Shown piece by piece: positions 41,634 to 63,732 of a DNA stretch of 64,000 nucleotides. Position 1 is the stretch's first letter, and the number at the start of each line of letters is the position of its first letter. A program made the translations under genes and the position numbers. The DNA is from Chitinophagaceae bacterium (GTDB taxonomy: Bacteria > Bacteroidota > Bacteroidia > Chitinophagales > Chitinophagaceae): contig CANFHA010000008.1 of NCBI GenBank assembly GCA_947446645.1, positions 1 to 64,000 of the forward strand, read 5' to 3'. The notes under the pieces were generated by a model. It was not told the origin of the DNA and made no database searches. It worked only from the letters and a program-made list of their open reading frames with translations.

Positions 41634-41663
41634 ATTGAGGATTTTATCTTAAAATTTGTCTGA

Positions 41664-42191: not shown

Positions 42192-42257
42192 AACCAGTAA
42201 GAGGAATGGCGTCCTCACGCTCTTTAAACGAAGTGATAAATAGATTTTCTGTAACGA

Positions 42258-43088: not shown

Positions 43089-43128
43089 TTTCTCTTATTT
43101 TCTCCGCAATGTTTATTAATGATAAAGG

Positions 43129-44091: not shown

Positions 44092-44100
44092 TTGCGTTTG

Positions 44101-44400
44101 TTATTTATAGTAAGCATCACTCCTGATTGTTCCATCCGGCAGAACCGACACATTTGCAACATCCATTCCATCCTTTGCAAACTCTATACTTATTGCTCTG
44201 ATAAGCTCCCTGAAGTTTTCATCATCCAGGTATCCAAATACACCTACACAAGAGTCTGGGCTCTCCTTAAAGTCACCCTTATTGTTCATTATCAACTGGC
44301 GTTGATGCTCAGCTGTACTTTCTACCACTCCAAAATCTGAAACAATTATTTCCAGGTCCTGAGTGTCATCAAGTGTAATATCTATTTGTTGTCGTGCCAT
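44101..44400 (-). CDS. gp25/gpW-like baseplate protein, 99 aa
   Basis: Small size and the family-type sequence ESTAEHQRQLIMNNKGDFKESPDSCVGVFGYL, followed by a helix and VANVSVLPDGTI, fit the gp25-like wedge component that starts sheath assembly in contractile tails. Position directly after the spike gene agrees. Confidence 0.65.
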   Translation of the reverse strand: MARQQIDITLDDTQDLEIIVSDFGVVESTAEHQRQLIMNNKGDFKESPDSCVGVFGYLDDENFRELIRAISIEFAKDGMDVANVSVLPDGTIRSDAYYK

Positions 44401-44406
44401 AGTTTG

Positions 44407-45995: not shown

Positions 45996-46041
45996 GGAGC
46001 ATCGCTTTTGAATCGATCGCTTTTTAGCAGATCGTCTATCG

Positions 46042-46689
46042 TTAAGAAATTGCGAGAAGATTAAATGGCTCATCGCTTACCATGCGCAACTGATATGGCC
46101 TTACGTTTTTTACGCCGGTTATTGCAGGAAAACTCAGTTCACGGATCACAACCTGGTCACTGCCGCGCCTGTCAGGTCTTAGGAGAAAAATATCTGTCAG
46201 CGGGCACTGAATAGACAGGGCAGCATTCTGCTCATAGATTGTGCGCAGTTTAGTTACTTCTGCCTCGGGAAAATCATTGGAACTACCTATGAGAAATCCT
46301 TTTATCACTATCTCATAATCCTGTACGTTTATTAATTCTTTCACTGTGCCTCTTCGCTCGGTGAGTGGCGTTTCAACTATTGTTTTTTTGCTTGTAACAG
46401 AGATCACCGGATATGGCAATTCCCACTTACTTACTGAGCCCTGGCGGTCGCCAGTATCAGGCGTACTCTGTTCCGATGAGTCGGTATAGCTTATAGTAAC
46501 GGGCATATAATATTCATTGCCAAGCGCATCAGCAGAATAATAAGGCGACCCTTGTGCACCATTTTCTTTTCGGGCTGGCGATAAAGAGCTGCTACCGGTT
46601 ACTCTTTTAAAATCGGGGTCAAATGCTCTTGTCTTGTAGCCAAATGTGCGCTCAAAAAGATCGGCCAAGCTGAATGATATTTCTGACAT
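46042..46689 (-). CDS. DUF6046 family tail protein, 215 aa
   Basis: Sequence matches the DUF6046 type known from Bacteroidota contractile-tail clusters: YYMPVTISYTDS, WELPYPVISVTSKKTIVETPLTERRGTVKELINVQDYEIVIKGFL, and VVIRELSFPAITGVKNVRPYQLRMVSDEP. It occupies the gp43-like slot just upstream of the hub gene. Domain role unknown; probably a tail/baseplate adaptor. Confidence 0.75.
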   Translation of the reverse strand: MSEISFSLADLFERTFGYKTRAFDPDFKRVTGSSSLSPARKENGAQGSPYYSADALGNEYYMPVTISYTDSSEQSTPDTGDRQGSVSKWELPYPVISVTSKKTIVETPLTERRGTVKELINVQDYEIVIKGFLIGSSNDFPEAEVTKLRTIYEQNAALSIQCPLTDIFLLRPDRRGSDQVVIRELSFPAITGVKNVRPYQLRMVSDEPFNLLAIS

Positions 46690-46691
46690 AG

Positions 46692-47960
46692 TTAGGATAT
46701 TGTATTTGCACTGTTAAGAACTTCAAGCAGCACCTCTTCCACTTTGTATCTAAGGTCATCCAGGCCACTGGCACTGCCGTTAGTGCTTACCGTAAAATTG
46801 CCGATCAATGGAGTGTTTAGATTTAAATTTACAATGCGGCCTGTGTTAGCCGGTAGAGTGCAGGTGTCAGGATTATTGCTATTTCCCCCACCCATGTCAA
46901 AACCATCGCTTTGTGGATCGATCAGAAAACCATTTGAATCAGCACCTTTTTCCGAAAGCGAAAAAATTGATCTTTCTCTTAGGTTATCGTGCATACTACT
47001 AGCAGACAAATCTGAAGAGTATTTCCCTAACTCCTGGACAGGAGAATTATATATTAGTGAAGGATAGTCTAAAAATGAGTTTTTCATTTTTTTCTGAAAG
47101 TTCATTATAGCAGGGGGCTGATCTTTAAATGTCTTAAACGGGTCGAAAATCTTTTCTGTACTGTCGTTTAGCGATTCGCTTCCTTTCTGTATAGTATCAA
47201 ATTCCCATGCTCGTGGGTACAATTCAATACGAGGCTGACTGTTGCCTTTTTCGGGCATATTTTTTAGTGCTGGAGACAACACGTTTGCCCGGTTAATGAC
47301 AGGAGATCGAATACGACTATTATCGGCGAGCGCTATTCGCGGAAGAATTAATTTAATGTCCGCTATTGGTTCGTTGTTTACGTTTAGCGAGTTGGTGGCA
47401 TCTGGAGCCAATAAACTTGTTTTCCCGGTTTTAGTTGAAAGCTTAGGCACACGCGCCATGATGTCATCAAATACTTTCTGATTTATATCGCTGAAAATAC
47501 CACCGCTGTCATGAAAGAACTTTAGCGCATCAGGCAGGTCGATGGAATGTTTATTTATTGAGTCATGCTTTGCACCCGGCAGCGACACCCACCTTCCATT
47601 TGTTTTTTTTATCGCTGTAACAATATCTCCGTTTAGTACATAATAATGCCCATTTCTTGTGTGATCAAGCAAATATACCGCCGCTATATCCTGGCTATGA
47701 GGACTGAAATCTGGTAGTGAAAGCGCTTTAAATGCTTCCTTCCATGTGGCAATATTTATTTGATATGCACCTGTCGCCCTTGAATCATATTTTTTAAAAT
47801 ATTTATTTGGATGTACAGCAAAACTTTCAAATTTTGTGCCCCCCACAAATGTCCGGTATCCATCTGTGCCCAACGTTCCTTCAGCCAATCTTAATGTTAA
47901 CAAATATGCCTTCACATTTGGGTTCTTCAGTAATTCCTCATAATATTTAACGGACGCCAT
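46692..47960 (-). CDS. GH104-like lysozyme fused to an unknown C-terminal region, 422 aa
   Basis: Residues 1-150 resemble the lambda-R/GH104 lysozyme fold: TLRLAEGTLGTDGYRTFVGG with probable catalytic Glu27, FESFAVHP, SRATGAYQINIATWKEA, and LPDFSPHSQDIAAVYLLD. The remaining 270 residues are low-homology and Ser/Asn-rich. The 2-bp spacing to DUF6046 and the place in the tail operon point to a tail-tip peptidoglycan hydrolase, not a free endolysin. Confidence 0.75.
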   Translation of the reverse strand: MASVKYYEELLKNPNVKAYLLTLRLAEGTLGTDGYRTFVGGTKFESFAVHPNKYFKKYDSRATGAYQINIATWKEAFKALSLPDFSPHSQDIAAVYLLDHTRNGHYYVLNGDIVTAIKKTNGRWVSLPGAKHDSINKHSIDLPDALKFFHDSGGIFSDINQKVFDDIMARVPKLSTKTGKTSLLAPDATNSLNVNNEPIADIKLILPRIALADNSRIRSPVINRANVLSPALKNMPEKGNSQPRIELYPRAWEFDTIQKGSESLNDSTEKIFDPFKTFKDQPPAIMNFQKKMKNSFLDYPSLIYNSPVQELGKYSSDLSASSMHDNLRERSIFSLSEKGADSNGFLIDPQSDGFDMGGGNSNNPDTCTLPANTGRIVNLNLNTPLIGNFTVSTNGSASGLDDLRYKVEEVLLEVLNSANTIS

Positions 47961-48044: not shown

Positions 48045-48860
48045 ATGAAAATAATTACCTTACTCATCGTGCTGATAACATGCGCGCAGACGTCAAAGGC
48101 ACAGACTCCCTTACCTGATGAATTCATAGGGCATTGGGAAAACAAAGACTGGTACGAAAGAAGCATCTATTCGGATTTTATGGTTGTAACCAAAGACACA
48201 GCAAAGCTTATCTTGTTTGAGTCTGAGGATAAGGAAAAGGTGTATGTGGTATGCAAGCCGAAGTATGCCAATGATACTATGTTTCTATACACGGCTTATG
48301 TGGATTCTGGGGCCCGGCAATTTGAGAACTTTGTTATGCCCAGGCACAAAAGTTTATTTGCAAAATGCTACCTCGCAGAAAATGCGCTGCACATCATTTA
48401 TACCCATAAATGGTTCATAAAGAATATAAGCGAATTCAAGCTTGATACTGTCGTCTACAAATTCGCACCTGGTGCATCTACCGGACGTGCAATTACATCT
48501 AAGCAAAAAAATTTTTATGGAACATGGTACGAGCACACAAGCGATGATGATGCGTTTCCCGTATTTGAAATTGCCAGTGAACGAGTGAACTTTATGGTAT
48601 TAGTGAACCAATTGTACCTGGTGTGCAAACCTAAGTTTGAAGGGGATACCCTATTGCTTTACATTAAATATATTGACTGTGGACGTATGTTTTTCCCGGG
48701 AAATTACCCTCTGCCGAAGTTTAGGAGCTTATTCGCAAAATGCTACATGAAAGGAAATCAGATCCACATTATCTATACTCAAAAGCTATTTAGAAACCAC
48801 ATTAAAGACTTCGACTTGTCTACAATAGTAAAAAAACACCACACAACTTTGAATCGGTAG
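48045..48860 (+). CDS. Secreted protein with internal duplication, 271 aa
   Basis: The signal peptide ends at about residue 19 (TSKAQ). The body is two copies of one domain (about 25-140 and 160-265), each with a GHWENKDW- or GTWYEHT-type start, YLVCKPK..GDT..LY, and SLFAKCY...N.IHIIYT.K.F. It is on the plus strand, opposite to the tail genes, between the lysozyme and chaperone-like genes. No family recognised. Envelope or exported location inferred. Confidence 0.7.
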   Translation: MKIITLLIVLITCAQTSKAQTPLPDEFIGHWENKDWYERSIYSDFMVVTKDTAKLILFESEDKEKVYVVCKPKYANDTMFLYTAYVDSGARQFENFVMPRHKSLFAKCYLAENALHIIYTHKWFIKNISEFKLDTVVYKFAPGASTGRAITSKQKNFYGTWYEHTSDDDAFPVFEIASERVNFMVLVNQLYLVCKPKFEGDTLLLYIKYIDCGRMFFPGNYPLPKFRSLFAKCYMKGNQIHIIYTQKLFRNHIKDFDLSTIVKKHHTTLNR

Positions 48861-49553: not shown

Positions 49554-49985
49554 CTACTGCGCAATGAGTTTCATAAAGACGATGGGCAGCGTCACATCCA
49601 TATTCTTGGCACCCTGGTCCCAGCCTTTTTGAAAATCTTTGACTTCCACACCTACCAGGGTATCTGTTTGCAGTGGCCGTGTGCCCTTAGGTTTGTAGGT
49701 GATCACAATATCAAATTGCATATCCAGTATATCATCACCTCCAGCGGTTATGGCCGCCCGGTTCATATCATCTATAGCCCCTTTCAGCACCTTTATTTCA
49801 CCTTCATAGGTGCGGTTGCCGCTCTGTATGCTTATTGGTTCGTCGCCGGCTGAGTGCAGCAATTGCTTTTCTTTTGCAGCCTTATATTTCACACCGCGAA
49901 CTTTAGTAAGTGGTGATCCTGCAAACATCACGGTCATGTCCGCCCATTCACAGTCTTTGCTATCGAAAAATGGTATTGATGGCAT
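49554..49985 (-). CDS. Contractile tail tube protein, 143 aa
   Basis: Small beta-sandwich protein of the size and type of tail tube subunits: FDSKDCEWADMTVMFAGSPLTKVRGVKYK, EPISIQSGNRTYEGEIKVL, QFDIVITYKPKGTRPLQTDTLVGVEVKDF. It directly follows the sheath gene, the usual order in contractile-tail operons. It should polymerise as the inner tube under the sheath. Confidence 0.8.
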   Translation of the reverse strand: MPSIPFFDSKDCEWADMTVMFAGSPLTKVRGVKYKAAKEKQLLHSAGDEPISIQSGNRTYEGEIKVLKGAIDDMNRAAITAGGDDILDMQFDIVITYKPKGTRPLQTDTLVGVEVKDFQKGWDQGAKNMDVTLPIVFMKLIAQ

Positions 49986-50076: not shown

Positions 50077-51267
50077 CTATTGGGCAGGGTTATTAAAACC
50101 GAGTGTTATCTCAAAATTTGTCGCATAGCCCACAGGCACTATTTTCAGTACCACGTTTAGCTGGTTTGTACTGAGAATATTTTGTACCGGGTCTATAAAA
50201 CAGCTTATGCTGCTTATCTCTTTATTGGCAGTCATAGTATTGTTTACCTGGTTCACTATCTGCTGCTCCAGCCATTTACAAAATCCGGCATCCAGCGTTC
50301 CATCAGTGTTTACGGGCATCTCGTCGTCTACCTCCTGCACAAATGTGGTATAAGCCAGTATATGCACCTTATCCATCACCCTGCCGCGTGCAAGCATACT
50401 ATAGTCATCTGTTGTAGCAGTGCACATAGGGTCGCCGCTGAAGAAATAGCCGCTTACATTAGGATAGGTCTTAAACGTTATAAAACCTTTTTGAGCAATT
50501 AAGCTCAAGCTACTACCTGCCTCCTCCACAGTAGTGTCACTCACATATGCCGCAGGTATTTTAAGGGGACCTGTTCTTACCCTGCTTATTTTCCGGTGTA
50601 CCGGGATGGACGATATTGTGCCAAGGAGCAGTCCTACGCAAGCTGATTTACTGGTGTATGTGATATCTGTGTCTCCTATAAGTATGGCAGTGCGATTGCT
50701 GGTAGTACCATCCGTTTCATCCGGCAGCGAAGATGGCACGCCTTGGTAGGAAGAGCCTCCTATCACTGCCCTGAAGGGCGTTTGAGCCTGAAAGTATGCC
50801 TGCGCCATCACCTCTATATTTGTAACCGCAGTTTGTACATCCTGGTTCATCCCGTTTAGCAGTGTCACTGTACCTCCGGCAGTTACAATTGCCGCATCAT
50901 CACTAAGCAGGCCAAGTACTTTTATTTTTCCACCCGCAAAGTCAAGCAGTGTCTTCGCACTGGCGGGGGCAGAGATGCTCGCCATTTGAGCTACCGTTAC
51001 GGTAGGCGGCATCAACATTACATATAGCTGGGCACCGGTGCCTGCCTGGTTATAGAATTCCTGTAGTTGCTTTATGGCAAACGGATTGTTTCCTGTAGTG
51101 ATACCTGCCACGACAACATCTGCCATGCTGGTTACAAGTATGGGCACACCAGCAGTATACCCTCCGGACTCACTTACTCCTGTCATTACAATACCAGCAA
51201 TTCCGTCATTGGTTTGTATTGTTCCTCCTAGCTGGCCATTTGCCAACGATATGTTTACTCTTCCCAT
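50077..51267 (-). CDS. DUF2586 tail sheath protein, 396 aa
   Basis: Matches the DUF2586 sheath type: an N-terminal handshake strand (MGRVNISLANGQLGGTIQTNDGIAGIVMTG), central AYFQAQTPFRAVIGG and ACVGLLLGTISSIPVHRKISRVRTGPL, GFITFKTYPNVSGYFFSGDPMCT, and a C-terminal FEITLGFNNPA strand that would complete the next subunit. It contracts to drive the tube. It shows the particle has a contractile (myovirus-like) tail. Confidence 0.88.
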   Translation of the reverse strand: MGRVNISLANGQLGGTIQTNDGIAGIVMTGVSESGGYTAGVPILVTSMADVVVAGITTGNNPFAIKQLQEFYNQAGTGAQLYVMLMPPTVTVAQMASISAPASAKTLLDFAGGKIKVLGLLSDDAAIVTAGGTVTLLNGMNQDVQTAVTNIEVMAQAYFQAQTPFRAVIGGSSYQGVPSSLPDETDGTTSNRTAILIGDTDITYTSKSACVGLLLGTISSIPVHRKISRVRTGPLKIPAAYVSDTTVEEAGSSLSLIAQKGFITFKTYPNVSGYFFSGDPMCTATTDDYSMLARGRVMDKVHILAYTTFVQEVDDEMPVNTDGTLDAGFCKWLEQQIVNQVNNTMTANKEISSISCFIDPVQNILSTNQLNVVLKIVPVGYATNFEITLGFNNPAQ

Positions 51268-51595: not shown

Positions 51596-52132
51596 CTATA
51601 AGTATTTAATGAGTCCTTGCAGCACCTTATCATCAAGGTTCCGGGTATGCCTTACCACTTCATACCCTTCTCTACTGCCGTTTTTATTGCTGTTTCCTTC
51701 TATTGTGTACAGCAGGTTGCCTTTCACTGCCTCCACAATACCTGTGTGTCCTTCAGCATCGCTCAGGAAAAGAATTACCTGGTCACCTGGTCCTATCTGT
51801 TCGGGGTGAAGAAGCGCATTGGCTTTAGGTATCTTTACTATGTGCTTGCCCGCAGATGTGCGGTTCCAGCAATCGTGTACTCCGGCCGTTCTCAGTAAGG
51901 GATTCTGTATTCCCAGCCATTTTGCGGCTTCTTCATAACACCAATACACGAATGCCTGGCACCACGGATATCCGGGCTTAAGCCCTGCAGCACGCAGGTA
52001 CTCGTTTACCATTGGGCCACTATTACTCCCAGCAGGTTTCTCAGATTGCCCTAGCTGGCCTTTGGCAATTTCCAGCGCAGTGCAGGCAAGCGTTTCAGCA
52101 CGGCTTGTTTTATCAGCAAATCCAGTGTCCAT
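51596..52132 (-). CDS. CHAP-domain peptidoglycan hydrolase (endolysin candidate), 178 aa
   Basis: An NlpC/P60-like CHAP fold with the nucleophile Cys in PGYPWCQAFVYWCYEEA, His in AEGHTGIVEAV and a following EGNSNKNGS. No signal peptide. This class cleaves amide bonds in peptidoglycan. With the XhlA-like membrane gene at 52634 it forms a likely lysis unit placed between sheath and capsid genes. Confidence 0.8.
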   Translation of the reverse strand: MDTGFADKTSRAETLACTALEIAKGQLGQSEKPAGSNSGPMVNEYLRAAGLKPGYPWCQAFVYWCYEEAAKWLGIQNPLLRTAGVHDCWNRTSAGKHIVKIPKANALLHPEQIGPGDQVILFLSDAEGHTGIVEAVKGNLLYTIEGNSNKNGSREGYEVVRHTRNLDDKVLQGLIKYL

Positions 52133-52180: not shown

Positions 52181-52597
52181 TTACGACTTCGATGCAGTGT
52201 ATTTTGCCTGGGTATACAGATCATATAAGTTTTGCTTCAGGCGTTGCCCGTCAAGTTGTGCGGCCAGCAGGCTGGCTAATTTCTGTAGCAGTGCATCCTG
52301 CAATTCCGGGTCACGAAGCTTAAGCTGTTCTATAAAGCAGGTAAGCCGTTCGTTTATGTCTGCGATTTGTTTACAGCTATCGGCTATCGTTAGCACCGCT
52401 ATTGCCTTGCTCAGCGCAGCTACCAGCTGCCGACGTATGGTATTGTCAATATCACCGGGAATTATGGCAGTGATGATATCCGCCACCGGCGACGATAATG
52501 CCTTTTTTAGGCCGATCGTAATTTTAAGAGCTGTGTCAATATGTGCATCCACATAATTGTCAAACTCGGTCAACAGTAGTTTTAGTTGTCTTTTCAT
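52181..52597 (-). CDS. Unrecognised helical protein, 138 aa
   Basis: Start at 52597 (MKRQLKLLLTEFDNYVDAHIDTA). 52612 is an alternative. Mainly helical with hydrophobic stretches (VADIITAIIPGDID, AALSKAIAVLTIADSC) that are probably amphipathic. Located between the CHAP enzyme and the XhlA-like gene, so a lysis accessory role is possible but unproven. Confidence 0.6.
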   Translation of the reverse strand: MKRQLKLLLTEFDNYVDAHIDTALKITIGLKKALSSPVADIITAIIPGDIDNTIRRQLVAALSKAIAVLTIADSCKQIADINERLTCFIEQLKLRDPELQDALLQKLASLLAAQLDGQRLKQNLYDLYTQAKYTASKS

Positions 52598-52633
52598 TTT
52601 GGTACAGAACATAGGGTTTCGTTTTAGCGCTTA

Positions 52634-52894
52634 TTAATTATTTTTTGTCTCCAGCGTATGTATGCGGGTGGAGTGCTCGTTGAGGCGCGCATGTATCATG
52701 GCATCCTGCTCCTGCAGGCCTTTTATCTGCTGCCCTTGTATCGTCGTTGCATTGGTAAGCTGTTTCAGCTCCATCACTATCTCATCCAGCCTCTTTATCA
52801 CTTGTCCCGTCACTATCCTGATAATGAAACCAAGTATCGTTGCCATGGCACCCGCCACCCCAACAAGTATCCATATTTTTAATTCTGAAAACAT
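52634..52894 (-). CDS. XhlA-like membrane/coiled-coil protein, 86 aa
   Basis: An N-terminal transmembrane helix (IWILVGVAGAMATILGFIIRIV, about 7-28) is followed by a coiled coil to the C-terminus (IKRLDEIVMELKQL ... LNEHSTRIHTLETKNN). This one-helix-plus-coil layout is that of XhlA/holin-associated proteins. Together with the CHAP gene it suggests a lysis function. Confidence 0.65.
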   Translation of the reverse strand: MFSELKIWILVGVAGAMATILGFIIRIVTGQVIKRLDEIVMELKQLTNATTIQGQQIKGLQEQDAMIHARLNEHSTRIHTLETKNN

Positions 52895-53032: not shown

Positions 53033-53947
53033 CTATGCTGCTGCCTGCACTATCGCTACTATACCTTTCGCATCGCTGCGGCGCTTACGCGCACCCATGC
53101 GCACACTCACGCTATACACGTCGCCATAGTAGGTAGGGTCACCAATTCGCTCAAAGAACTTTATATCACCCAGCGCACGTTCCACAGCCCCTATCTGCCA
53201 GCACAGTACACCATCATTATCTGTAACAGCCGGTGTGGCACCGTATGGGTTTACTACCGGGGCGGTATCATTGGTATAGGTCAGCACGCTGCTGCGCATC
53301 ATTATATTGAAGCCAAAGAGTCTGCCAAGTACACCGTCCTTAACATCATAAGCCGCGCTGAAATCACGATATTGCGTTGCCGACATATCATCCGTCAGCT
53401 GTTGAAACATATCAGCGCTTATGAGGGCATAGCGGCCTTCCATTGGTATATTCTGCTTGTTCAGCTGCAGTTGCGCATTTTTCAGGTCACTTACCACAAA
53501 CTTTGCCCTGTTGCCTGTGGTGCCGGCCAGTGTGGTAGCCACAGCGCCTCCCGTTGTGCGCACCAGTACTCCGGTGCTTGCAGTTGGCGCCCAGTCTATT
53601 AGCAGATTGTCCGCCACGGTCTGCCTCAGCGATGTTTCATACTCCGACAGTACACTCTCCCGCTTGTTGTAGCTGAGCTCAAATGTCTCCGCATTGGGGA
53701 TCAGTATAGGGTCGGTAGTGTATTCATCCAGGGTATACGTTACATCCGTATCTCCACGCTGCACCACTGTTGCCGGCACTGAAGACCTGTTCTTTACTAC
53801 CGTCGGCAGCGCACCCGCCTGTGGTATATGCACTACATGGCCGTTAAGTACATACTGTCCCGCATCTGTAGATGCAAGCAGAAATTCATTGTTCTTAAAC
53901 AGGTTGCCCTCTATATGGTCTTGCCATATCTCCTTTTGAATTGCCAT
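53033..53947 (-). CDS. Major capsid protein, 304 aa
   Basis: Length and features of tailed-phage coat proteins: N-terminal arm (IQKEIWQDHIEGNLFKNNEFL), E-loop region (DVTYTLDEYTTDPILIPNAETFELSYNKRESVLSEYE), P-domain helix (KFVVSDLKNAQLQLNKQNIPMEGRYALIS), and a C-terminal beta region (VERALGDIKFFERIGDPTYYGDVYSVSVRMGARKRRSDAKG). Placed downstream of the protease/scaffold gene as in head operons. It indicates a capsid, which excludes a headless injection system. Confidence 0.85.
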   Translation of the reverse strand: MAIQKEIWQDHIEGNLFKNNEFLLASTDAGQYVLNGHVVHIPQAGALPTVVKNRSSVPATVVQRGDTDVTYTLDEYTTDPILIPNAETFELSYNKRESVLSEYETSLRQTVADNLLIDWAPTASTGVLVRTTGGAVATTLAGTTGNRAKFVVSDLKNAQLQLNKQNIPMEGRYALISADMFQQLTDDMSATQYRDFSAAYDVKDGVLGRLFGFNIMMRSSVLTYTNDTAPVVNPYGATPAVTDNDGVLCWQIGAVERALGDIKFFERIGDPTYYGDVYSVSVRMGARKRRSDAKGIVAIVQAAA

Positions 53948-54286: not shown

Positions 54287-55285
54287 CTAAGCCGCCTGGT
54301 TAAATTTCTTCTCGAACAGCTCCCTATACCTTAACGGATCATTCGCCCTCAGCTCTTTCAGCTTCTTACCGGCAGGGTCATTTTTTTCATAGTCATCCCA
54401 CTGCCATTGCGCCTCACTGCTATCCTGTTGTTTACTCTTTAGCAGCTCTGTTATCGACCGGTATGCAGGCATTGCAGTTAGCAGCTCTTTTAGCCCTTCA
54501 GGGTTGGCTGCATAATCCTTAGCCAGCTTTCCGCTAAGCTCGGTGGTAAGTTTCTTGTCCTCAAGGGCGCGTTCCAGCAGTGCAGTTACTTCATACCTGG
54601 TGCGCACCTTTTTTATTTCCTCTATCTGCTGCTCCAGGTCATATTTATCACTGCGCAGCAGCCTGTTTTCCAGCTCCAGGCTGCCTGTTTTAGCTACCAG
54701 TTCTTTCACTGCGCCGGTTATTGCTGGTCCATCTGCCTCACTCTCTATCCGTAGTGTCGTGCGTAGATCATTCAGCGTGTTCTGTTCCCAATTATTAATC
54801 AGGGGCTTGCGGATGTTCAGGTCCATAAGATTCAGCTCATTCTCCTGTGCATCATAGAGCGATGTAAGGGCATTGCAGTTCCCCGGTATATCCACCAGGC
54901 TGCACTCTTTGTTGTACCACTTCGTTATCGTGGGGCCCGTTTGGCCGGGCAGCATCATTTCCTTATCCATGCTATACTCCAGCACTACTATATGCCCCAC
55001 AGATGCTGCATTAAGAAATCCGTTTTCGGCCTCGCTCCACGTTTGCTCACCGCGCTCGTTCGAGAGGTTTATTACCGGTGTGCCCAGCACCCTGTCATCC
55101 ACTATTTGCAGGTCTTCCCACTTCAGCACTATACCTTCTTCGCGGCGGTGCATATAGTATCCTATAGGGTTTTTCTGAAAAGAATCCAGCTGGTAGCCGG
55201 ATGTGAGTAGCCGGAAACCATATTCATTCACCGTGCTATCCGAGAGCACATACTGCCGCTCTATTTTCTTCAATTTTTCTGTCAT
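54287..55285 (-). CDS. Prohead protease / scaffold-like protein, 332 aa
   Basis: Start at 55285 (MTEKLKKIERQYVLSDSTVNEYGFR). The N-terminal half (QKNPIGYYMHRR, IVLKWEDLQIVDDRVLGTPVINLSNERG, EYSMDKEMMLPGQTGPTITKWYNKECSLVDIPGNCNA) has the gist of prohead proteases/structural serine proteases. The C-terminal half is a helical, charged coiled region (ELENRLLRSDKYDLEQQIEEIKK) typical of fused scaffolds. It is the first gene of the minus arm. Confidence 0.7.
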   Translation of the reverse strand: MTEKLKKIERQYVLSDSTVNEYGFRLLTSGYQLDSFQKNPIGYYMHRREEGIVLKWEDLQIVDDRVLGTPVINLSNERGEQTWSEAENGFLNAASVGHIVVLEYSMDKEMMLPGQTGPTITKWYNKECSLVDIPGNCNALTSLYDAQENELNLMDLNIRKPLINNWEQNTLNDLRTTLRIESEADGPAITGAVKELVAKTGSLELENRLLRSDKYDLEQQIEEIKKVRTRYEVTALLERALEDKKLTTELSGKLAKDYAANPEGLKELLTAMPAYRSITELLKSKQQDSSEAQWQWDDYEKNDPAGKKLKELRANDPLRYRELFEKKFNQAA

Positions 55286-55311
55286 GATAGGGATATCGTT
55301 GTTTTGTGACA

Positions 55312-55319
55312 CAAAGGTG
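55312..55319 (-). promoter_or_regulatory. Minus-arm promoter block CACCTTTG
   Basis: On the minus strand CACCTTTG (near TAnnTTTG) lies in ATCACCTTTGTGTCA, 26 nt before the start at 55285, and TTG stands 20 nt upstream of it. Nearly the same block (TTCACCTTTGTGCCA) precedes the plus arm, with the same TTG spacing. Confidence 0.55.
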
Positions 55320-55352
55320 ATTCGGAATTTTAAGTTCCGCAAAAAATGATTT

Positions 55353-55381
55353 TATGATAGAGCGAAAAGTGCGCTATCATA
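55353..55381. promoter_or_regulatory. 29-bp inverted repeat operator, left copy
   Basis: Arms TATGATAG and CTATCATA enclose 13 bp (AGCGAAAAGTGCG). The reverse complement recurs at 57811-57839 with one difference. The near edge is 68 bp from the first start codon of the minus arm and 34 bp from its promoter-like box. Probable binding site for a regulator of the whole cluster. Confidence 0.7.
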
Positions 55382-55396
55382 ATCACTATAGTGATT
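55381..55396. promoter_or_regulatory. 16-bp perfect palindrome next to the operator
   Basis: AATCACTA/TAGTGATT is perfectly symmetric and abuts the 29-bp repeat. The right copy of the operator has a shorter TCACGTGA palindrome (57841-57848) in the matching place, and both sites then read CATGTAAT. This may be a second binding site. Confidence 0.55.
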
Positions 55397-55750
55397 ATCA
55401 TGTAATTTTTTTCGGCCCTAATCAGTTGAAATTTAGCGGTATATACGTTACTGATACCTCAGATTTTCCGCGAGTCATTTTTCAGGCATTTTCATTCACC
55501 AACCATAAACATATTAGCCGCATTTCATGTCCTTCATGCGGTATAATACCCTGAAGAAACATAGAACACGGCTAACACTTACTCCCCTGCGATTAACTAA
55601 AACACACCACAAACTCAAACTCCACAAAACAACTTTGCCTATTACTTTACTTCAGCTCTAAAATTCTAAGACAATATTCCTATGCATATGCAAACACATT
55701 CGCAGCGCAAACGCGCAGACTTACGACTCACGACTTATGACTTACGACTA
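55397..55750. other. Gap left of the core membrane gene
   Basis: No convincing gene. A short plus-strand frame starts inside the operator (55354-55554, CPSCG near its end) but is probably spurious. A GACTCACGACTTATGACTT repeat at about 55719-55749 matches the host repeat at 30221. Confidence 0.4.
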
Positions 55751-56215
55751 CTAAGCAGCATCCAGATTGCTTTCTATATAGCTGCGTATCTTACGTATAT
55801 AGTCGAAGTAGCCCATCTGCATCCGCACAAAGAATACCGCCAGTATGCTGCTCGCTATTGCCAGCAAAGCAAACGCTATCCTGATCTCGCCCCCTACCAG
55901 AATCAATATCGCCGCAGCAATAAGCATAAAGGTACAGAAGGTAACGATGAGCAATGGCCCGCCGGCATCCAGCCTCCGCATTTTAGAGGTTACCACCACG
56001 CGCATCCTGTCCCCTTCCTGCTTCATTTCTACTTTGGTTATGGGCAGTGTCTTTAGCCCTTCTTCCTGCTCAGCATGAGGTATTATCCTCAGCGACTGCT
56101 CTTTCTCATACACTTCAAAGTCCATGTTATGAATCTTCACATGGTGCCCTACCAGGCGGTTCCGGAGATCTTCCTTTGGTGTTGATGATTGGTACTTCTG
56201 TGTTCTCGTAAACAT
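55751..56215 (-). CDS. Two-helix membrane protein, 154 aa
   Basis: A soluble N-terminal part (about 1-80, VKIHNMDFEVYEKEQSLRIIPHAEQE) with basic character, then two transmembrane helices (about 86-108 and 110-130), then a short helical tail (YFDYIRKIRSYIESNL). No family recognised. It is located between the two operators with the DEAD-box gene, so it belongs to the non-phage core. Confidence 0.65.
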   Translation of the reverse strand: MFTRTQKYQSSTPKEDLRNRLVGHHVKIHNMDFEVYEKEQSLRIIPHAEQEEGLKTLPITKVEMKQEGDRMRVVVTSKMRRLDAGGPLLIVTFCTFMLIAAAILILVGGEIRIAFALLAIASSILAVFFVRMQMGYFDYIRKIRSYIESNLDAA

Positions 56216-56373
56216 AAAAAGTGTTTTATGGGTTCACTTAAATAGACGTCACACCAGGTTGAAAGGTTAGCGCTTTACATAACTTTAACAAAAAACATGC
56301 CATTTAAACCCCTTTCGCCACTTTCTTTTGTTCGCTACGCCACTTGCTATACCTTTAGCTAAAATATATTCCT

Positions 56374-57573
56374 TTGGATTTTGATGATTTCGGTTTTGAT
56401 TATGACCTCATGGATGGCATTGATGCCATGGGCTACCGCACTGCAACTCCTGTGCAGGAGCAAGTAATACCATCCATCATTGCCGGCCACGATATTATTG
56501 CCGCTGCGCAAACGGGCACTGGTAAAACAGCCGCTTTCCTGCTCCCGGTCATCCACAAGCTGCTCACAGAGCAGCACGATGCGCATACCATAAATGCAAT
56601 GATCATAGTCCCGACCCGTGAGCTTGCCGTGCAGATAGCGCAAACACTGGAAGGCATATCATACTACACTTCCATCAGTTTTATAGCTGTCTATGGCGGC
56701 ACAGGCGGCGCCCTTTTTGCCGCAGAGAAAAAAGCACTTACAACAGGTGCCGATATTGTTATCTGCACTCCCGGCCGCATGATATCCCATCTCAATATGG
56801 GCTATGTGAAACTCGACGGGCTCAAATATCTTATTCTCGATGAGGCTGACCGTATGCTCGATATGGGTTTCTACGAAGACATTATAAAGATCATCTCCTA
56901 CATGCCTAAGGAGCGCCAGAACCTGCTCTTCTCGGCTACTATGCCTCCGGGCATTCGCCAGCTGGCCAACACTATACTTAAAAAACCTGTCGAAGTAAAC
57001 ATTGCTATATCAAAGCCACCGGAGCAGATAAAGCAGGAAGCGTTCATTGTGTTTGAAGCGCAGAAGATACCGCTGGTAAAGCACGTCTTGCAACAGACCC
57101 AGTTCGATAGTGTGCTTATCTTCTGCTCCAGCAAGCTAAGCGTTAAAAAACTGACTGAAGAGCTAAAGCGAGCCAGGTTCTCTGTCGACCAGATACAGTC
57201 GGACCTGGAACAGGATAAGCGTGAACAGGTATTGCTCGATTTCAGAAGCAAGAAGCTCAAGATACTTGTGGCTACAGATATCCTCAGCCGGGGTATAGAC
57301 ATTGAGGACATTGACCTCGTCATCAACTTCGATGTACCACACGATGGCGAAGATTATATTCACCGCATAGGCCGCACGGCCCGCGCAGCTACCAAGGGCA
57401 CTGCTTATACCTTCATCAGCGAAAAAGAAAAGTATAAATTCGACAGGATAGAAAAGCTGCTGGGGCATGCCGTCACTAAAGCACAGGTGCCAGAGCAGTT
57501 TGGTCCAACGCCCACTGCCGGCGAGTTCGTACAAAAACAAAAAAAGAAAAATAACAGGAAATTCAAAAGATAA
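56374..57573 (+). CDS. DEAD-box RNA helicase (RhlE-like), 399 aa
   Basis: TTG start (no ATG in frame before a stop). Motifs in order: Q motif GYRTATPVQEQ, Walker A AAQTGTGKTA, PTRELAVQ, TPGR, DEAD in ILDEADRMLDMGF, SAT in LLFSATMPP, then the second RecA domain with STRGI-like LSRGIDIEDI and HRIGRTARAATKG. A basic tail (QKKKNNRKFKR) follows. It remodels RNA duplexes. The class is normally chromosomal, so its position between two phage arms is unusual. Confidence 0.93.
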   Translation: MDFDDFGFDYDLMDGIDAMGYRTATPVQEQVIPSIIAGHDIIAAAQTGTGKTAAFLLPVIHKLLTEQHDAHTINAMIIVPTRELAVQIAQTLEGISYYTSISFIAVYGGTGGALFAAEKKALTTGADIVICTPGRMISHLNMGYVKLDGLKYLILDEADRMLDMGFYEDIIKIISYMPKERQNLLFSATMPPGIRQLANTILKKPVEVNIAISKPPEQIKQEAFIVFEAQKIPLVKHVLQQTQFDSVLIFCSSKLSVKKLTEELKRARFSVDQIQSDLEQDKREQVLLDFRSKKLKILVATDILSRGIDIEDIDLVINFDVPHDGEDYIHRIGRTARAATKGTAYTFISEKEKYKFDRIEKLLGHAVTKAQVPEQFGPTPTAGEFVQKQKKKNNRKFKR

Positions 57574-57592
57574 TGCTCCACGCATTCACCAC

Positions 57593-57624
57593 AAGTAGAG
57601 ACCCAATATCTTGCGTCTCTACTT
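57593..57624 (+). terminator. Stem-loop after the helicase gene
   Basis: AAGTAGAGAC pairs perfectly with GTCTCTACTT over a 12-nt loop. It lies between the helicase stop and the plus-arm operator and likely separates the two transcription units. Confidence 0.6.
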
Positions 57625-57810
57625 GCGTTTGCAACTTTAAATATCTCTTTTGAACGAGCATGTCAATCCCATTAAAAATAATTTTCACAACATCAAAATT
57701 CTTCATCCGCAACACTTTGGTTTCGGCCACTTTGCCATAGCGCAAAAGCGGTAATATTTATCCGCTGCATTTTCAGCAATTTAACTTCGGTTATCCACAC
57801 AAAAAAGTTT

Positions 57811-57839
57811 TATCATAGCGCACTTTTCGCTCTATCATA
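57811..57839. promoter_or_regulatory. 29-bp inverted repeat operator, right copy
   Basis: TATCATAG...CTATCATA is the reverse complement of the left copy with one substitution. Its near edge is 67 bp from the plus-arm start at 57906. It is followed by TCACGTGA and a GCTCTACCAT half-site, so the region has at least two related elements. Confidence 0.7.
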
Positions 57840-57893
57840 TTCACGTGACGCTCTACCATGTAATCTTTAATTGCCCGTTTGAAATTTGCGATT

Positions 57894-57901
57894 CACCTTT
57901 G
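57894..57901 (+). promoter_or_regulatory. Plus-arm promoter block CACCTTTG
   Basis: TTCACCTTTGTGCCATG: the -7-like CACCTTTG ends 4 nt before the ATG at 57906. A TTG stands 20 nt upstream. This is the same layout as the minus arm, but the very short distance to the ATG implies a leaderless transcript or a later start. Confidence 0.5.
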
Positions 57902-57905
57902 TGCC

Positions 57906-58370
57906 ATGAGGAGAGAATTTTCGTACGATCAGAGAAAAGAATGGGCCAAAACGCTTTACACAAAGCTGGATAAAGGCATCAGTGAAATTGCGATAACGGT
58001 CGGAGCAGATGAAGTTATAGTGCGCTCATGGATACAGGAAGGGAGGTGGAACGACGTTAAGCGTTCACTCCTTATCTCAAAAGAAGCACAGCTGGAACGC
58101 TTCTACAGTGCCATAGAGCGCATCTATGCTAAATCGGTTGAATATCCCGATGGAGAACTGACTATAAAAGATATTGACCTTGTTACCAAATACACAGCGG
58201 CTATTAAAAACCTGGAATCCGAAACGGGCATTTCCTATATCGTCCAGGTGGCAGCGCTGTTCACCCGGTGGCTGCTTCATCGCGATGCAGTTCTTGCTCG
58301 CGAAGTCACAGCGCACTTCGATACATTTATTACAGATCTGGATGTTTCCAGGCCTAAGCCATTAATTTAA
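57906..58370 (+). CDS. Terminase small subunit, 154 aa
   Basis: Start at ATG 57906 (MRREFSYDQRKEWAKTLY). Residues 25-55 form a HTH of the small-terminase type (GISEIAITVGADEVIVRSWIQEGRWNDVK), followed by helices used for oligomerisation (LERFYSAIERIYAKSVEYPDG). It recognises the packaging site on DNA and regulates the large subunit. It is the first gene of the plus arm and precedes the large terminase by 55 bp. Confidence 0.75.
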   Translation: MRREFSYDQRKEWAKTLYTKLDKGISEIAITVGADEVIVRSWIQEGRWNDVKRSLLISKEAQLERFYSAIERIYAKSVEYPDGELTIKDIDLVTKYTAAIKNLESETGISYIVQVAALFTRWLLHRDAVLAREVTAHFDTFITDLDVSRPKPLI

Positions 58371-58425
58371 TTATTTCACGTGCTAAATGGAGCTGCAGGC
58401 ATCACGCACTGCAGGTGGGAATTTT

Positions 58426-59952
58426 ATGACAGATAAACAGTGGTTTACCTATTGGCGGCAGCATGCCAAAATGATATTTGATACCACACAGGTAGATGTA
58501 AATGAAACTAAAGAAGAAAGTGAACAAAGAAAAGAAGAGCTGGAAGCTGACCCTGAGAAATGGTTTAAATACTATTTCCCCGGCTATGCTACTTCGCCTC
58601 CTGCTCATTTTCATCTTGCGGCAACCAAACGGGTACTTGCAAATCCTGAGTGGTACGAAGTAAGGATCTGGAGCCGCGAACTAGCCAAGAGCACACGCAC
58701 TATGATGGAGGTATTCTACCTCACCCTCGTTGGCCATAGTGTTGATCCGCCGGCTGAGCGAAAACCGAGACGATATGTCTTGCTCATCAGCAACAGCCTC
58801 AACAATGCCTGCCGGTTGCTCACACCATACCGTATCAACTTTGAGTGTAACCAGCGTATTCACCAGGACTACGGGCCCCAGCAAAGCATTATTAAGTGGA
58901 CAGAAACAGAATTCATAACTATCGGCGGAGTAGCTTTTCGTGCGCTGGGTGCGGGTCAGAGCCCACGCGGCACCCGCAATGAAGAAGCCCGGCCGGACAT
59001 AATATTGTTTGATGATATAGACACGGATGCCGATTGCCTGAATCCCGAGATAATTGCAAAGAAGTGGAGATGGATAGAGGAAGCAGCGATCGGCACCCGT
59101 TCTGTGTCTGGCAGTACTACTATTATTTTTTGTGGCAACCGCATTGCTGCAGACTGCTGCATTGAACGTGCTACAAAGCTGGCCGATCATTCCGAAGTTA
59201 TAAACATTCGCACTGCAGCAGGTAACTCTGCATGGCCGGAAAAGAATACTGAGGCCGATATTGAGCGTGTGCTTTCCCAGAAAAGCTATGCGGCCCAGCA
59301 GAAAGAATATTTCAATAATCCCATTACAGAAGGGTCGGTGTTTAAACACATGGCATACAAGCCCGTCCGGCATCTTAGCGAGTACGATATGATCGTATGC
59401 TACACCGACCCTTCTTATAAAACAACCAGCGACTACAAAGCCACAGTGCTCGTAGGCAAATGGCAAAATGAATACCACATTATCAAGTGCTTTCTCGCCC
59501 AGGGCACTACCGCACATATGATAGACTGGCACTACACCATCATGGATATTGTTGCCACCGTGGAACAGGCCTGTTGCTATTATTTCATGGAGCAGGTATT
59601 CATGCAGGATGTGCTGGTAAAAGAAGTTAATGATGCAGGCCTCAGAACCAAACGTCCAATACCGCTTAGCGGAGACACCCGCAAAAAGCCGGACAAATTC
59701 ATGCGCATCGAAAGCCTGCTCGAGCCACTGCACCGCAATGGTCAGCTTTATCTGAACGAGCATGAGCGCAGCAACCCGCACATGGCACGCCTCGCAGAGC
59801 AGTTTACTGCTTTCGCACCGCGCTCCCGTGCCCACGACGATGGCCCCGATGCCGTTGAAGGCGCTATCTGGAAAATCAACGAGCTGCTGCTCAGAAAGAC
59901 CGATGGTGCAATTGTAGTCTCAAAAAAACAGCCAAATAAAAACCGCTGGTAA
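58426..59952 (+). CDS. Terminase large subunit, 508 aa
   Basis: Start at 58426 (MTDKQWFTYWRQHAK). ATPase: a Walker A-like RELAKST at 84-90 and Walker B IILFDDID at 192-199, then the coupling segment TTIIFCGNR. Nuclease: first Asp D328 in CYTDPSY and the last acidic pair in DDGPDAVEG (D471-D475). It packages DNA into proheads and cuts it. All motifs are intact, so it is likely functional. Confidence 0.9.
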   Translation: MTDKQWFTYWRQHAKMIFDTTQVDVNETKEESEQRKEELEADPEKWFKYYFPGYATSPPAHFHLAATKRVLANPEWYEVRIWSRELAKSTRTMMEVFYLTLVGHSVDPPAERKPRRYVLLISNSLNNACRLLTPYRINFECNQRIHQDYGPQQSIIKWTETEFITIGGVAFRALGAGQSPRGTRNEEARPDIILFDDIDTDADCLNPEIIAKKWRWIEEAAIGTRSVSGSTTIIFCGNRIAADCCIERATKLADHSEVINIRTAAGNSAWPEKNTEADIERVLSQKSYAAQQKEYFNNPITEGSVFKHMAYKPVRHLSEYDMIVCYTDPSYKTTSDYKATVLVGKWQNEYHIIKCFLAQGTTAHMIDWHYTIMDIVATVEQACCYYFMEQVFMQDVLVKEVNDAGLRTKRPIPLSGDTRKKPDKFMRIESLLEPLHRNGQLYLNEHERSNPHMARLAEQFTAFAPRSRAHDDGPDAVEGAIWKINELLLRKTDGAIVVSKKQPNKNRW

Positions 59953-61013: not shown

Positions 61014-61074
61014 ACGCCTGCGCCACCCATCACCGAACAACTCAATCAATAAACAAATCAACCAATCAACCACC

Positions 61075-61509
61075 ATGCCTATCATCACCCCGGCTGATCT
61101 CAGCACCAACATTTATCCGGAGATCATCACAGAGATCACACGCACAGATACTACCATTACGTACCGCGCTATTGATGCAGCCATACACGAAACCAAAATG
61201 TACCTCGCACGATTTGATCTGGCGCAACTCTTCGGAACAAATACCTTGCAACCCGCCGTACATGATGAATACCTTAGGAGCTTGGTTAAAGACATTGCCT
61301 GTTGGCACTTACTGCGCTTATCTAATGTCGGTGTAGACTACACAGTCTATCGAACCGCCTACCAGGACGCACTTACCACCTTAAAAAACATTATGGCCGG
61401 GCAGGCCCAGCCCCAGGGATGGCCTTATGCTGATACGGCTACAGAAGATATACCCGATGGGGACACCATTTCCTGGAGCAGCAATCCTAAGCGCAACAAT
61501 TACTATTAA
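61075..61509 (+). CDS. Mu gp36-like (DUF1320) head-tail protein, 144 aa
   Basis: Start at ATG 61075 (MPIITPADLSTNIYPEIITEITRTD). The family pattern is present: DAAIHETKMYLARFDLAQLFG, YLRSLVKDIACWHLLRLSN, and YQDALTTLKNIMAGQAQPQGWP. It is a short, mostly helical connector between head and tail in Mu-like phages. Found between the terminase and portal genes. Confidence 0.8.
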   Translation: MPIITPADLSTNIYPEIITEITRTDTTITYRAIDAAIHETKMYLARFDLAQLFGTNTLQPAVHDEYLRSLVKDIACWHLLRLSNVGVDYTVYRTAYQDALTTLKNIMAGQAQPQGWPYADTATEDIPDGDTISWSSNPKRNNYY

Positions 61510-61511
61510 AT

Positions 61512-61985
61512 TTAGACAATGCTGATCGGAGGGAAGGCACCAGGATAGCGCATAGTTTTTGACGACTCGGGCACCTTGTAATAGGCATTATGCGGGTTTT
61601 TAAATCTCTTCCGCTTTGGCGCCGGGTCTATAAATACCTTGTCATTGAATTTGATGTATATAAACACCAGAACACACAGTCCGGAATATATAAGTATCGC
61701 CGTATAGCTGGTCGATTTCTTAGCATCTTTAGTCAGTGTCTTTTTCGGCGGGGTAGACCTGTATATCAGGTACGTCATCAGTGCAGCCGTAAAAAAAATA
61801 TAGGGAAACGAAAATAACTTATGCACAATAGAAGTCGGCATCCATCCTTCCAGCAATATCCCCAGGCCAAAGATCATTACCATATTTAGTAGCGATACGT
61901 AGGCAATGGCTATAACAAGAGAAAATAACTTGAACCGTGTTATGTTGTATACAAAGCGATAAACGGAGGTTATTAGACTTCTCAT
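61512..61985 (-). CDS. Small polytopic membrane protein, paralog A, 157 aa
   Basis: Helices at about 20-45, 55-78 and 95-113, with the conserved segment GLGILLEGWMPTSIVHKLF and FPYIFF. The C-terminus is basic and proline-containing. It shares this segment with the gene at 62168-62533. On the minus strand, opposite to the terminase/portal genes, its stop lies 2 bp from the end of the gp36-like gene. No family recognised. Confidence 0.65.
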   Translation of the reverse strand: MRSLITSVYRFVYNITRFKLFSLVIAIAYVSLLNMVMIFGLGILLEGWMPTSIVHKLFSFPYIFFTAALMTYLIYRSTPPKKTLTKDAKKSTSYTAILIYSGLCVLVFIYIKFNDKVFIDPAPKRKRFKNPHNAYYKVPESSKTMRYPGAFPPISIV

Positions 61986-62167: not shown

Positions 62168-62533
62168 TTAGTAATCGGCAGAGTAAAGATAGAAGTACTT
62201 AATGTATATGAAGAGGATCACTGCGGCTATCGTAAACACGATTAGCGGCGCATACATTACCCCTGTTTCTTTATCCCTCGATAGGTTTTGAAGCGGCAAC
62301 ATGATCACAAAATTAAAAATGAACATTGCTGCTGCCACACCTATTATATAAGGAAATGCGAAGAGTATGTGTACATAAGAAGTAGGCATCCAGCCCTCTG
62401 CCAGTATACCCAATCCGTAAATGAGCAGCAGGTTTATTACTGTAAAATAGATGAGTGAGGAAAAGAGAGCAATGACTTTATTCTGGGTAAACTTGAATAC
62501 GATCTTATACAGGTCGGCTATTAACCTTCTCAT
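62168..62533 (-). CDS. Small polytopic membrane protein, paralog B, 121 aa
   Basis: Start at 62533 (MRRLIADLYKIVF). Three to four helices and the shared segment GLGILAEGWMPTSYVHILFAFPYI. About one third of the residues are the same as in paralog A by eye. The pair is probably a tandem duplication. It precedes the portal gene divergently, so it could be co-regulated or be an exclusion/immunity-type cargo. That function is a guess. Confidence 0.65.
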   Translation of the reverse strand: MRRLIADLYKIVFKFTQNKVIALFSSLIYFTVINLLLIYGLGILAEGWMPTSYVHILFAFPYIIGVAAAMFIFNFVIMLPLQNLSRDKETGVMYAPLIVFTIAAVILFIYIKYFYLYSADY

Positions 62534-62616
62534 CTTCTGAACAACTGATTTAAAAAGCACAAGATAGAGTTTTTTCACTATCACAACACATTACGCAATA
62601 GCAAAAAATATTTTTT

Positions 62617-63732
62617 ATGGTAAGGACACACAAAACCGGTCATGGTCCGGAACCGGTAATAATAAACGAGCTCAATATCCGTTCAGTCGATCGGGGGCGC
62701 AAAGACATTCTTTCCTGGCGTAGCGCACTCTCTGGTGCGGAGTCGGTATATTTCCCCAATCGCTCCCGTCTCTACGATCTGTTTGAAGATGTCGTTCTCG
62801 ATGGTCACTTGTCTGGTATTATCGCTAAGCGCATCGATGCAGTACTCAATAAAGATCTGATCTTTCAGTGCAGCGGAAAAAGATGCAGCGCCATGGATGA
62901 ACTTATCCATTCGCTGTCTTTCAGGCAGGTTATGCGCACCATTATGGAAACGCAGTTATGGGGCATCTCAGGCATCGAGTTCATACCTGGTCAGCAACTG
63001 TCCTGCCAGCTTATACCACGCAAGCATATAAAACCGGAATCCGGCATCATCGCCTATGAGCAAACAGGTGCCGATGGCATCGCCTATGAGCCGATCGATA
63101 ATGTCTGGATCATTGGCGACCCCAAAGATCTCGGCCTTCTGCTGAAGTGCGCCCCCTATAGTCTCTATAAGCGCGGCGGCCTGTCAGACTGGGCGCAATA
63201 CATAGAGCTGTTTGGCCAGCCGGTTCGCGTTATCAAGTACGATTCATATGACGAACAAACAAAGCTGGAGCTGAAAAAAATACTGGATGAAAGCGGCAGT
63301 TCTCTCTCTATGATGATTCCCCGCCAGGCCGACTTTGAGCTTAAAGATGGTAAGCAAACCAACTGCGACGGCAACCTCCAGCTATCATTTATCAAGGCAC
63401 TCAACGAAGAGATGTCTATCACCATTCTGGGCAATACCGAGACCACAACCAGCAGCTACAGCACCGGGTACGCACAGAGCAAGGTGCACCTGGAGCAGCA
63501 ATACGAGATCACCCGCAGCGATCTTGTGTACACCGCAGCCATGCTCAACAGCCCAAAATTCCTTTCTATACTGCGTGCTTATGGTTACCCTGTCAGTGGT
63601 GGTCTCTTTGTCTTCTCAAAAGATATGGACATCGACTACCTCAAAACAAGGCTCGCTATTGATAAAGAAGTCTCCCAAATGGTCCCGATCAGCGACGACT
63701 ATTGGTACAATACCTATGGTATACCTCGATAG
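62617..63732 (+). CDS. DUF935 (Mu gp29-like) portal protein, 371 aa
   Basis: Portal signature of the DUF935 family: LYDLFEDVVLDGHLSGIIAKRIDAVLN, GISGIEFIPG, PRKHIKPESGIIAYEQ, LGLLLKCAPYSLYKRGGLSDWAQYIELFGQPVRVIKYDS, and the C-terminal GNTETTTSSYSTGYAQSKVHLEQQYEI. It forms the dodecamer at the capsid vertex through which DNA enters and leaves. Shorter than Mu gp29, but all core segments are present. Confidence 0.88.
   Translation: MVRTHKTGHGPEPVIINELNIRSVDRGRKDILSWRSALSGAESVYFPNRSRLYDLFEDVVLDGHLSGIIAKRIDAVLNKDLIFQCSGKRCSAMDELIHSLSFRQVMRTIMETQLWGISGIEFIPGQQLSCQLIPRKHIKPESGIIAYEQTGADGIAYEPIDNVWIIGDPKDLGLLLKCAPYSLYKRGGLSDWAQYIELFGQPVRVIKYDSYDEQTKLELKKILDESGSSLSMMIPRQADFELKDGKQTNCDGNLQLSFIKALNEEMSITILGNTETTTSSYSTGYAQSKVHLEQQYEITRSDLVYTAAMLNSPKFLSILRAYGYPVSGGLFVFSKDMDIDYLKTRLAIDKEVSQMVPISDDYWYNTYGIPR

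Follow-up and report, generated by a model that had tools for sequence, protein, structure and literature searches.

Predicted operators and promoters of the two arms

The window analyzed here, the whole stretch of 64,000 nucleotides at the start of contig CANFHA010000008.1 (C8) of a Chitinophagaceae bacterium, carries two divergent arms of phage-derived genes that together encode small and large terminase subunits (TerS and TerL), portal, adaptor, protease, capsid, sheath, tube, baseplate and endolysin proteins. The left arm, on the minus strand, begins with a prohead protease/scaffold gene (54287-55285) whose product weakly matches the Mu-like I protein; the right arm, on the plus strand, begins with terS (57906-58370), whose product matches phrog_4151 and has a helix-turn-helix (HTH) and a helical domain. 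Each arm is preceded by one copy of an inverted repeat, TATGATAGAGCGAAAAGTGCGCTATCATA at 55353-55381 and its reverse complement with a single change at 57811-57839. The two copies are 97% complementary over 30 nt and form the longest inverted pair among those listed for 54,500-59,000. An initial annotation of this DNA had proposed that they are operators through which one regulator controls both arms. Its coordinates and the complementarity were borne out, as were the distances of 68 bp from the left repeat (55353) to the protease ATG (55285) and of 67 bp from the end of the right repeat (57839) to the terS ATG (57906).

Between each operator palindrome (the left on the minus strand, recognized also by its layout in relatives; the right on the plus strand, recognized also by a genome scan) and the first gene of its arm lies a predicted promoter, TTG-N19-TCACCTTTG, identified from the sequence and a promoter score. 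It comprises TTG 55340-55342 and TCACCTTTG 55312-55320 on the minus strand (55312-55342 in all), and TTG 57871-57873 and TCACCTTTG 57893-57901 on the plus strand (57871-57901). The TCACCTTTGTG blocks said to be common to both arms are thus present, each with its TTG, which stands 19 nt before TCACCTTTG. According to PMC7366714, the consensus for the Bacteroidota primary sigma factor is TTTG near -33 and TAnnTTTG near -7. The arm promoters come close to it, with a -7 box that begins with C and not T, a departure that would fit an activator-dependent promoter.

The smaller elements noted beside the repeats are also in place: the 16-bp palindrome AATCACTATAGTGATT at 55381-55396 on the left, TCACGTGA at 57841-57848 on the right, and CATGTAAT tails at 55399-55406 and 57857-57864, on the plus strand in both cases. 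The tails proved to be part of a third half-site, which lies upstream of the palindrome in the left arm and downstream of it in the right, so that the arms are not exact mirror images. On the left, the 16-bp palindrome and the third half-site (CATGATAA on the minus strand) span 55381-55406; this half-site is 21 bp upstream of the first half-site of the operator and has an equivalent in relatives. On the right, TCACGTGA and the third half-site ACCATGTAA (57840-57867, plus strand) lie between operator and promoter. The distance from palindrome to TTG is 10 nt at the protease and 31 nt at terS, where the additional half-site occupies the two extra helical turns. Just upstream of the right operator stands TTATCCACA (57791-57799, plus strand), a word that resembles a DnaA box; nine of the 22 terS upstream regions contain it unchanged, and it could tie the element to DnaA or to replication.

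Two non-phage genes separate the arms, one for a small membrane protein (55751-56215, minus strand) and one for a DEAD-box RNA helicase, named from its sequence (56374-57573, plus strand). The same pair is found between the arms at the loci of relatives L041-L043 and L153. In other members of the phage family (the Porphyromonas and Elizabethkingia phages and L226, L227, L236 and L244), the arms join in one intergenic region. It is therefore probable that, here, an insertion entered what was once a single divergent control region, leaving one operator on either side of it.

Recurrence of the operator in the genome

Scanning the source genome (G000, 4.71 Mb) for TATGATAG-N13-CTATCATA, a check that the initial annotation had put forward, yielded five exact occurrences and none of the pattern written backwards, so the site is not confined to the arms. 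With up to three mismatches, 14 loci match the 29-mer consensus, and none match the reversed control. At 13 of the 14, a clear promoter lies on one side at set distances (TTG or TTT, a spacer of 19-20 nt, and CTTTG; at the arms, the -7 box has C in place of its first T). The promoter side scores 11 at nine sites, 10 at four and 8.5 at one (C20), and the other side scores 5-8; when the better of two sides is taken, random positions reach 10 in 0.32% of cases and 8.5 in 6.2%.

Six of the 12 sites beyond the arms precede orphan terS paralogues (C19:1512, C11, C2:227054, C4, C30 and C23). Four of these genes are whole, that of C30 is cut by the contig end, and that of C23 was assigned through 96% identity over 367 bp to the end of C30; two of the six thus lie at contig ends. 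Contigs C17 and C29 start with terS-like genes. The annotation had held that a repeat found at many unrelated loci would be a dispersed repeat and not an operator. The 12 further loci do exist, but the operator-promoter layout is clear in 11 of them and weak in just one, and relatives keep it upstream of both arms. With this layout, and with six terS paralogues downstream, we prefer a regulon to a neutral repeat as the better fit.

Operator and promoter in related genomes

We compared 34 congeners and 63 other genomes of the family or order. When up to one mismatch is allowed, 17 of the 34 congeners have the palindrome (84 sites, against 5 for the reversed control), as do 4 of the 63 genomes outside the genus (4 sites, against 4 for the control). 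A sample of dispersed copies from five relatives (G008, G016, G017, G028 and G031) comprised 40 regions with 42 sites. The promoter score is at least 9 at 38 of these sites, as against 2.7% at random, and 8.5 at three; the palindrome at G031:C175, whose score of 6 means no promoter, was taken as a chance match. Nine of the 40 regions hold a TerS-like gene, two of these being the arms' own terS.

Comparison of the two upstream regions, also suggested at the outset, revealed that the layout is kept at both arms, even where the arms are at separate loci. In a scan that was freer than the site scoring and had no control, the promoter was found upstream of the protease gene in 25 of 28 genomes (24 of the genus, including the source genome, and G039 of another genus), the three among the 28 in which it was not found being G027, G055 and G090, and upstream of terS in all 22 regions given. 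Half-sites in the 21-bp register can be made out in relatives.

Operator sequence differs between species, and arm and orphan copies match inside one genome. In each of 22 genomes, we compared the 62 nt that precede the -33 box of the protease with the 420 nt that precede one orphan. The orphan taken was the one that best matched a single query protein, and several diverged, operator-less members were thereby kept in. The mean score for arm and own-genome orphan was 22.1, compared with 11.2 (sd 1.1) for permuted pairs and none as high in 20,000, a result that co-evolution and recent copying within a genome would produce alike. In G027, GACGGTACTG/CAGTACCGTC stands between the arms and before two orphans, with a variant before a third; as the gene set of G027 is diverged and away from the carB contig, this is an independent case of the match between arms and orphans. 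Such drift between species, with matched copies within each genome, offers a natural set for the study of regulator-operator co-evolution. Promoter layout, conservation at both arms and the match within genomes together make the prediction of one regulator for both arms, reaching further loci, a well supported one.

Inheritance of the gene set

The two arms resemble a domesticated, Mu-like phage of the gene transfer agent (GTA) type. TerL is present in 30 of the 34 congeners and the capsid in 27; four have neither, and three of these genomes are less than 66% complete. The capsid gene lies 13-19 kb from carB on the same contig in the source genome and in 19 of the 26 searched congeners that have a capsid; of the other seven, six come from contigs of ∼4-20 kb or from a fragmented bin; in G027 the gene is elsewhere. 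Without G027, distances for CarB correlate with those for TerL (r 0.61) and for the capsid (0.62), neither value being reached in 5,000 permutations. The gene set thus appears to be inherited vertically at a fixed chromosomal place, although inclusion of G027 lowers the correlations to 0.29 (143 of 5,000 permutations) and 0.22 (520 of 5,000).

The window cluster does not, from its gene content, appear to be an active Mu-like prophage. Neither MuA/MuB nor a repressor was recognized in open reading frame lists covering 34-79 kb of the contig (cut-offs of 60, 150 and 100 aa). MuA, the transposase being the only such protein searched for genome-wide, was not found in the source genome with a phage MuA protein as query, which replaced a Pfam DDE_2 search that was silent on its control. 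Across 35 genomes MuA occurs in three, G009, G012 and G022. In G009 and G012 it is on the contig of a second TerL/capsid copy together with other early-region genes, and by this content the second copies are true prophages; in G022, it is on a 6-kb contig. Second full TerL copies are found in G009, G012, G019, G023 and G026; in G022 a full copy is accompanied by a partial one. Next to the domesticated copy, a Mu-like prophage of the same phage family is present in G009 (G009:C37; L227, L340) and in G012 (G012:C67; L226, L341), and in that of G009 a 21-bp-spaced array can be seen by eye between the arms.

An ordinary defective prophage, with late-gene operators that are relics without present function, would account for the nearest phages being Mu-like with the same divergent arms, and for the three congeners (G001, G008 and G032) that keep TerL but lack the capsid. 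We regard this as decidedly unlikely: the set is near-universal in the genus and keeps the same place across species, operators are matched within genomes, and capsid omega is ∼0.02 in the sole computable pair, in which synonymous sites are near saturation. The ATPase- and nuclease-like motifs of TerL, which we take to be Walker and nuclease motifs, also do not vary among the aligned homologues that span them (at least 20 of 27). In G001 (L234, G001:C217), a fibre gene lies beside mreD and is followed directly by DUF and helicase genes, the stretch from protease to tail being missing.

Orphan terS paralogues

At least one orphan terS match is present in 33 of the 34 congeners (1 to 15 each, counts that may include the arm's own terS); outside the genus, orphan matches are confined to the four genomes that have TerL as well. 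Four orphans of the source genome match phrog_4151 (E 5e-26 to 1e-20), and hhalign of 24 TerS against 25 orphan sequences gave 99.7% and E 9e-26 over 141 columns. Judged by these alignments, the orphans are homologues of the arms' TerS over the HTH and helical domain. Structure models of TerS and an orphan are similar in helix order (mean pLDDT 85 and 68), and the orphan model has a long disordered tail. Omega is 0.08, 0.105 and 0.23 in three of five orphan pairs, the pair with 0.105 being without the operator. Several orphans of the source genome (L016:1668-2642, L019:6950-7962, L240, L241) have in common a C-terminal stretch around RPSPFR..N.IW.N, which is possibly a docking element.

The orphans may, tentatively, be genus-specific alternative packaging adaptors, each of which, once the shared activator fires, would direct the TerL, portal and capsid that all of them use to a different part of the chromosome, a reading that we consider doubtful but worth stating. 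If it were true, the GTA would carry chosen regions that include the orphan loci, which would make these loci minimal satellites of the GTA. A related proposal is that the palindromes are primarily pac- or cosB-like packaging sites for proteins of the TerS family, with dispersed copies setting the places of packaging and the promoter secondary. It would explain why the site adjoins terS and orphan terS genes, why half-sites repeat every 21 bp as in an oligomer-binding array, why the TerS family has an HTH, and why many sites are gene-less. We think it unlikely, since a set distance to -33/-7, seen whether the site precedes an orphan or no gene, points to transcription, the site is also present at the protease arm, and one operator per genome is shared by paralogues with very different HTHs.

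Candidate regulator

Past the portal gene, a gp37-like gene and the reversed gene q3, just outside the window (C8:64,671-66,102), precede host genes. The product of q3 is a short protein of phrog_17154 (PHROGs gives no function); it has no Pfam match, and its NCBIfam matches are marginal and unrelated. At least 11 congeners (G004, G011, G012, G016, G019, G020, G024, G027, G028, G031 and G032) have a relative of q3 at this end of the terS arm, and in Mu-like phages and prophages such relatives sit between the early region and the terS arm. Of the proteins encoded in the early regions of two prophages and of a prophage fragment, only q3 has kin beside the window cluster; one early-region ATPase has a weak relative elsewhere in the source genome (L025). 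One stretch of q3 may be HTH-like by our own reading, with no library match. The protein is a candidate, and only that, for the regulator of the operator.

Predicted regulon

We propose that the palindromes are copies of one operator with a Bacteroidota-like promoter at a set distance, and that the pair probably switches on a regulon composed of both arms of the domesticated, vertically inherited gene set (Mu-like and of GTA type), orphan terS genes and further promoters. The binding protein would be a dimeric or oligomeric activator, perhaps q3; an activator is indicated because the array abuts -33 and because C replaces the initial consensus T of the -7 box. Arms and orphans would then be made together, and the particles may package host DNA.

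Several observations weigh against this proposal. The strict palindrome is missing in half of the congeners, and in several species (G002, G034 and G021, for example) only some of the half-sites are present, so that the array can be recognized in part only. Among the best orphans, one per genome, just 16 of 30 have an array within 400 bp upstream whose score exceeds the 99% level set by 280 control stretches and 300 shuffles (the score missed arrays in G027 and, as judged by eye, in G001), and two orphans of the source genome lack it. Of the five orphan pairs, one has an omega of 0.535 and one is saturated. A fold search of the Protein Data Bank with the TerS model gave nothing significant (best E 0.19). 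Relatives of q3 were not found at the expected place in G002, G007, G009, G010, G013, G018, G029 and G034; second full TerL copies are present without a MuA match in G019, G023 and G026. Six sites in the source genome (C2:53092, C16, C19:110886, C20, C24 and C26) have no recognized gene nearby, and 31 of the 40 dispersed regions in relatives are without a TerS-like gene by tblastn, in four of which the promoter faces a contig end within 0.6 kb.

The latter count lowered our confidence in a regulon and raised that in a mobile or gene-converted dispersed repeat, similar to MITE or REPIN elements, that merely happens to carry a promoter. Besides the many sites without terS, such a repeat would fit the 96-100% identity of most pairs among L188-L191 and L194 over 116-315 bp, the similarity of C23 and C30, the many copies at contig ends, and orphan positions that, where the short flanks were compared, are common to relatives in two weak cases only. 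Ends, target duplications or a transposase were not seen, although no systematic search for them was made, and similarity blocks between operator copies vary in length. Against a repeat of this kind, a conserved gene set retains the layout at each of its two arms (25 and 22 regions), G027 has the same layout with a different word, and three of five orphan pairs show purifying selection. It is because of the promoter geometry that a neutral dispersed repeat, which we now consider quite unlikely, is not preferred to the regulon.

Comparison with known systems

The Caulobacter crescentus GTA (PMC11150451) consists of a chromosomal phage-like cluster and ∼18 further promoters bound by the activator GafY, which helps RNA polymerase at a degenerate promoter in a regulon of ∼20 promoters. 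The present system resembles it in combining such a cluster with dispersed promoters under one, here predicted, activator, and differs from it in phylum, in phage ancestor (contractile and Mu-like here), in the palindromic array that abuts -33, and in further promoters that lead partly to terS paralogues. It is also like the Rhodobacter capsulatus GTA (RcGTA), a domesticated head-tail cluster with TerS, TerL and portal (PMC7947584). The same paper reports an RcGTA TerS without a specific DNA-binding domain, whereas TerS here retains its HTH and the TerS family is expanded; expansion under the element's own promoter would be the opposite of what is reported there.

In gene order the cluster is like two transposable, Mu-like phages of Bacteroidota, Porphyromonas phage012a (BK068093) and Elizabethkingia phage TCUEAP3 (OK632026), in which terS-terL-adaptor-portal and protease-capsid-tail arms are also divergent. 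TerL is 44% identical to that of both phages, and the capsid 51% identical to that of the Porphyromonas phage. Both Mu-like phages encode a q3-like protein between the early region and the terS arm. Unlike the window cluster, which lacks such genes and has two inserted host genes between its arms, these phages possess MuA/MuB and other early genes, and only 95-97 bp separate their arms. Late promoters of P2 and P4 have an upstream dyad site for the activator Ogr/Delta that is shared with the satellite, and in staphylococcal pathogenicity islands (SaPI) a TerS encoded by the satellite redirects packaging; the likeness of our system to these, in a dyad activator site and a satellite TerS, is an analogy only. 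A Bacteroidota gene transfer agent did not turn up in our searches of open-access papers. With a conserved candidate that has promoters and a predicted regulon, and with TerL also present in the named strain Flavipsychrobacter stenotrophus RB1R16, the existence of one becomes a testable question.

Gene-less sites

Downstream of four of the six gene-less sites in the source genome, at 149-418 bp, lies TATTTCAGGACGAGGCA, which has no other exact matches in the genome. Repeats of TGGGGCAT spaced 10-11 bp apart follow gene-less operator-promoters (L015, L017, L020, L023), with exact pairs at two of the four sites (C2 and C19) and a near-exact one at C24; an exact TGGGGCAT array at C18:90594 has no operator half-site pair near it. 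Other species have different short-word repeats (ACCGGAAGTA, TGCGCAAAAA) in this position and after some orphans. As a general feature, short-word arrays reached p<0.05 in 5 of 15 orphans and 4 of 15 gene-less sites (order-1 shuffles) and were not used as evidence. We also rejected the idea that gene-less sites are decayed terS loci, as tblastn with orphan proteins found only fragments (E 0.007-0.025) in the 1.5 kb after the six sites, and the idea that they are known RNAs, as the six loci gave no Rfam match.

Other genes of the arms

Beyond the protease, the left arm continues on the minus strand with the major capsid protein (53033-53947), a small gene called holin-like from its position alone (52634-52894; PHROGs gives no holin name), an unassigned gene (52181-52612) and an endolysin (51596-52132). 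The contractile sheath (50077-51267) and a tail tube-like protein (49554-49985) are next. A lysozyme-like protein (46692-47960), two baseplate hub proteins (46042-46689 and 44952-46073) and five more genes make up the remainder (40782-47960), which was assigned with the help of synteny, and the arm ends at the mreD border at 40.78 kb. Among the arm genes, no separate long tape-measure gene was recognized. On the plus strand of the right arm, terS is followed by terL (58387-59952), a head-tail adaptor (61024-61509) and the portal (62617-63732), for which the whole Portal_Mu profile is matched. Inside the left arm is a plus-strand gene (48045-48860), and inside the right arm are two small genes on the minus strand (61512-61985 and 62168-62584); these genes have relatives in the same position in several congeners.

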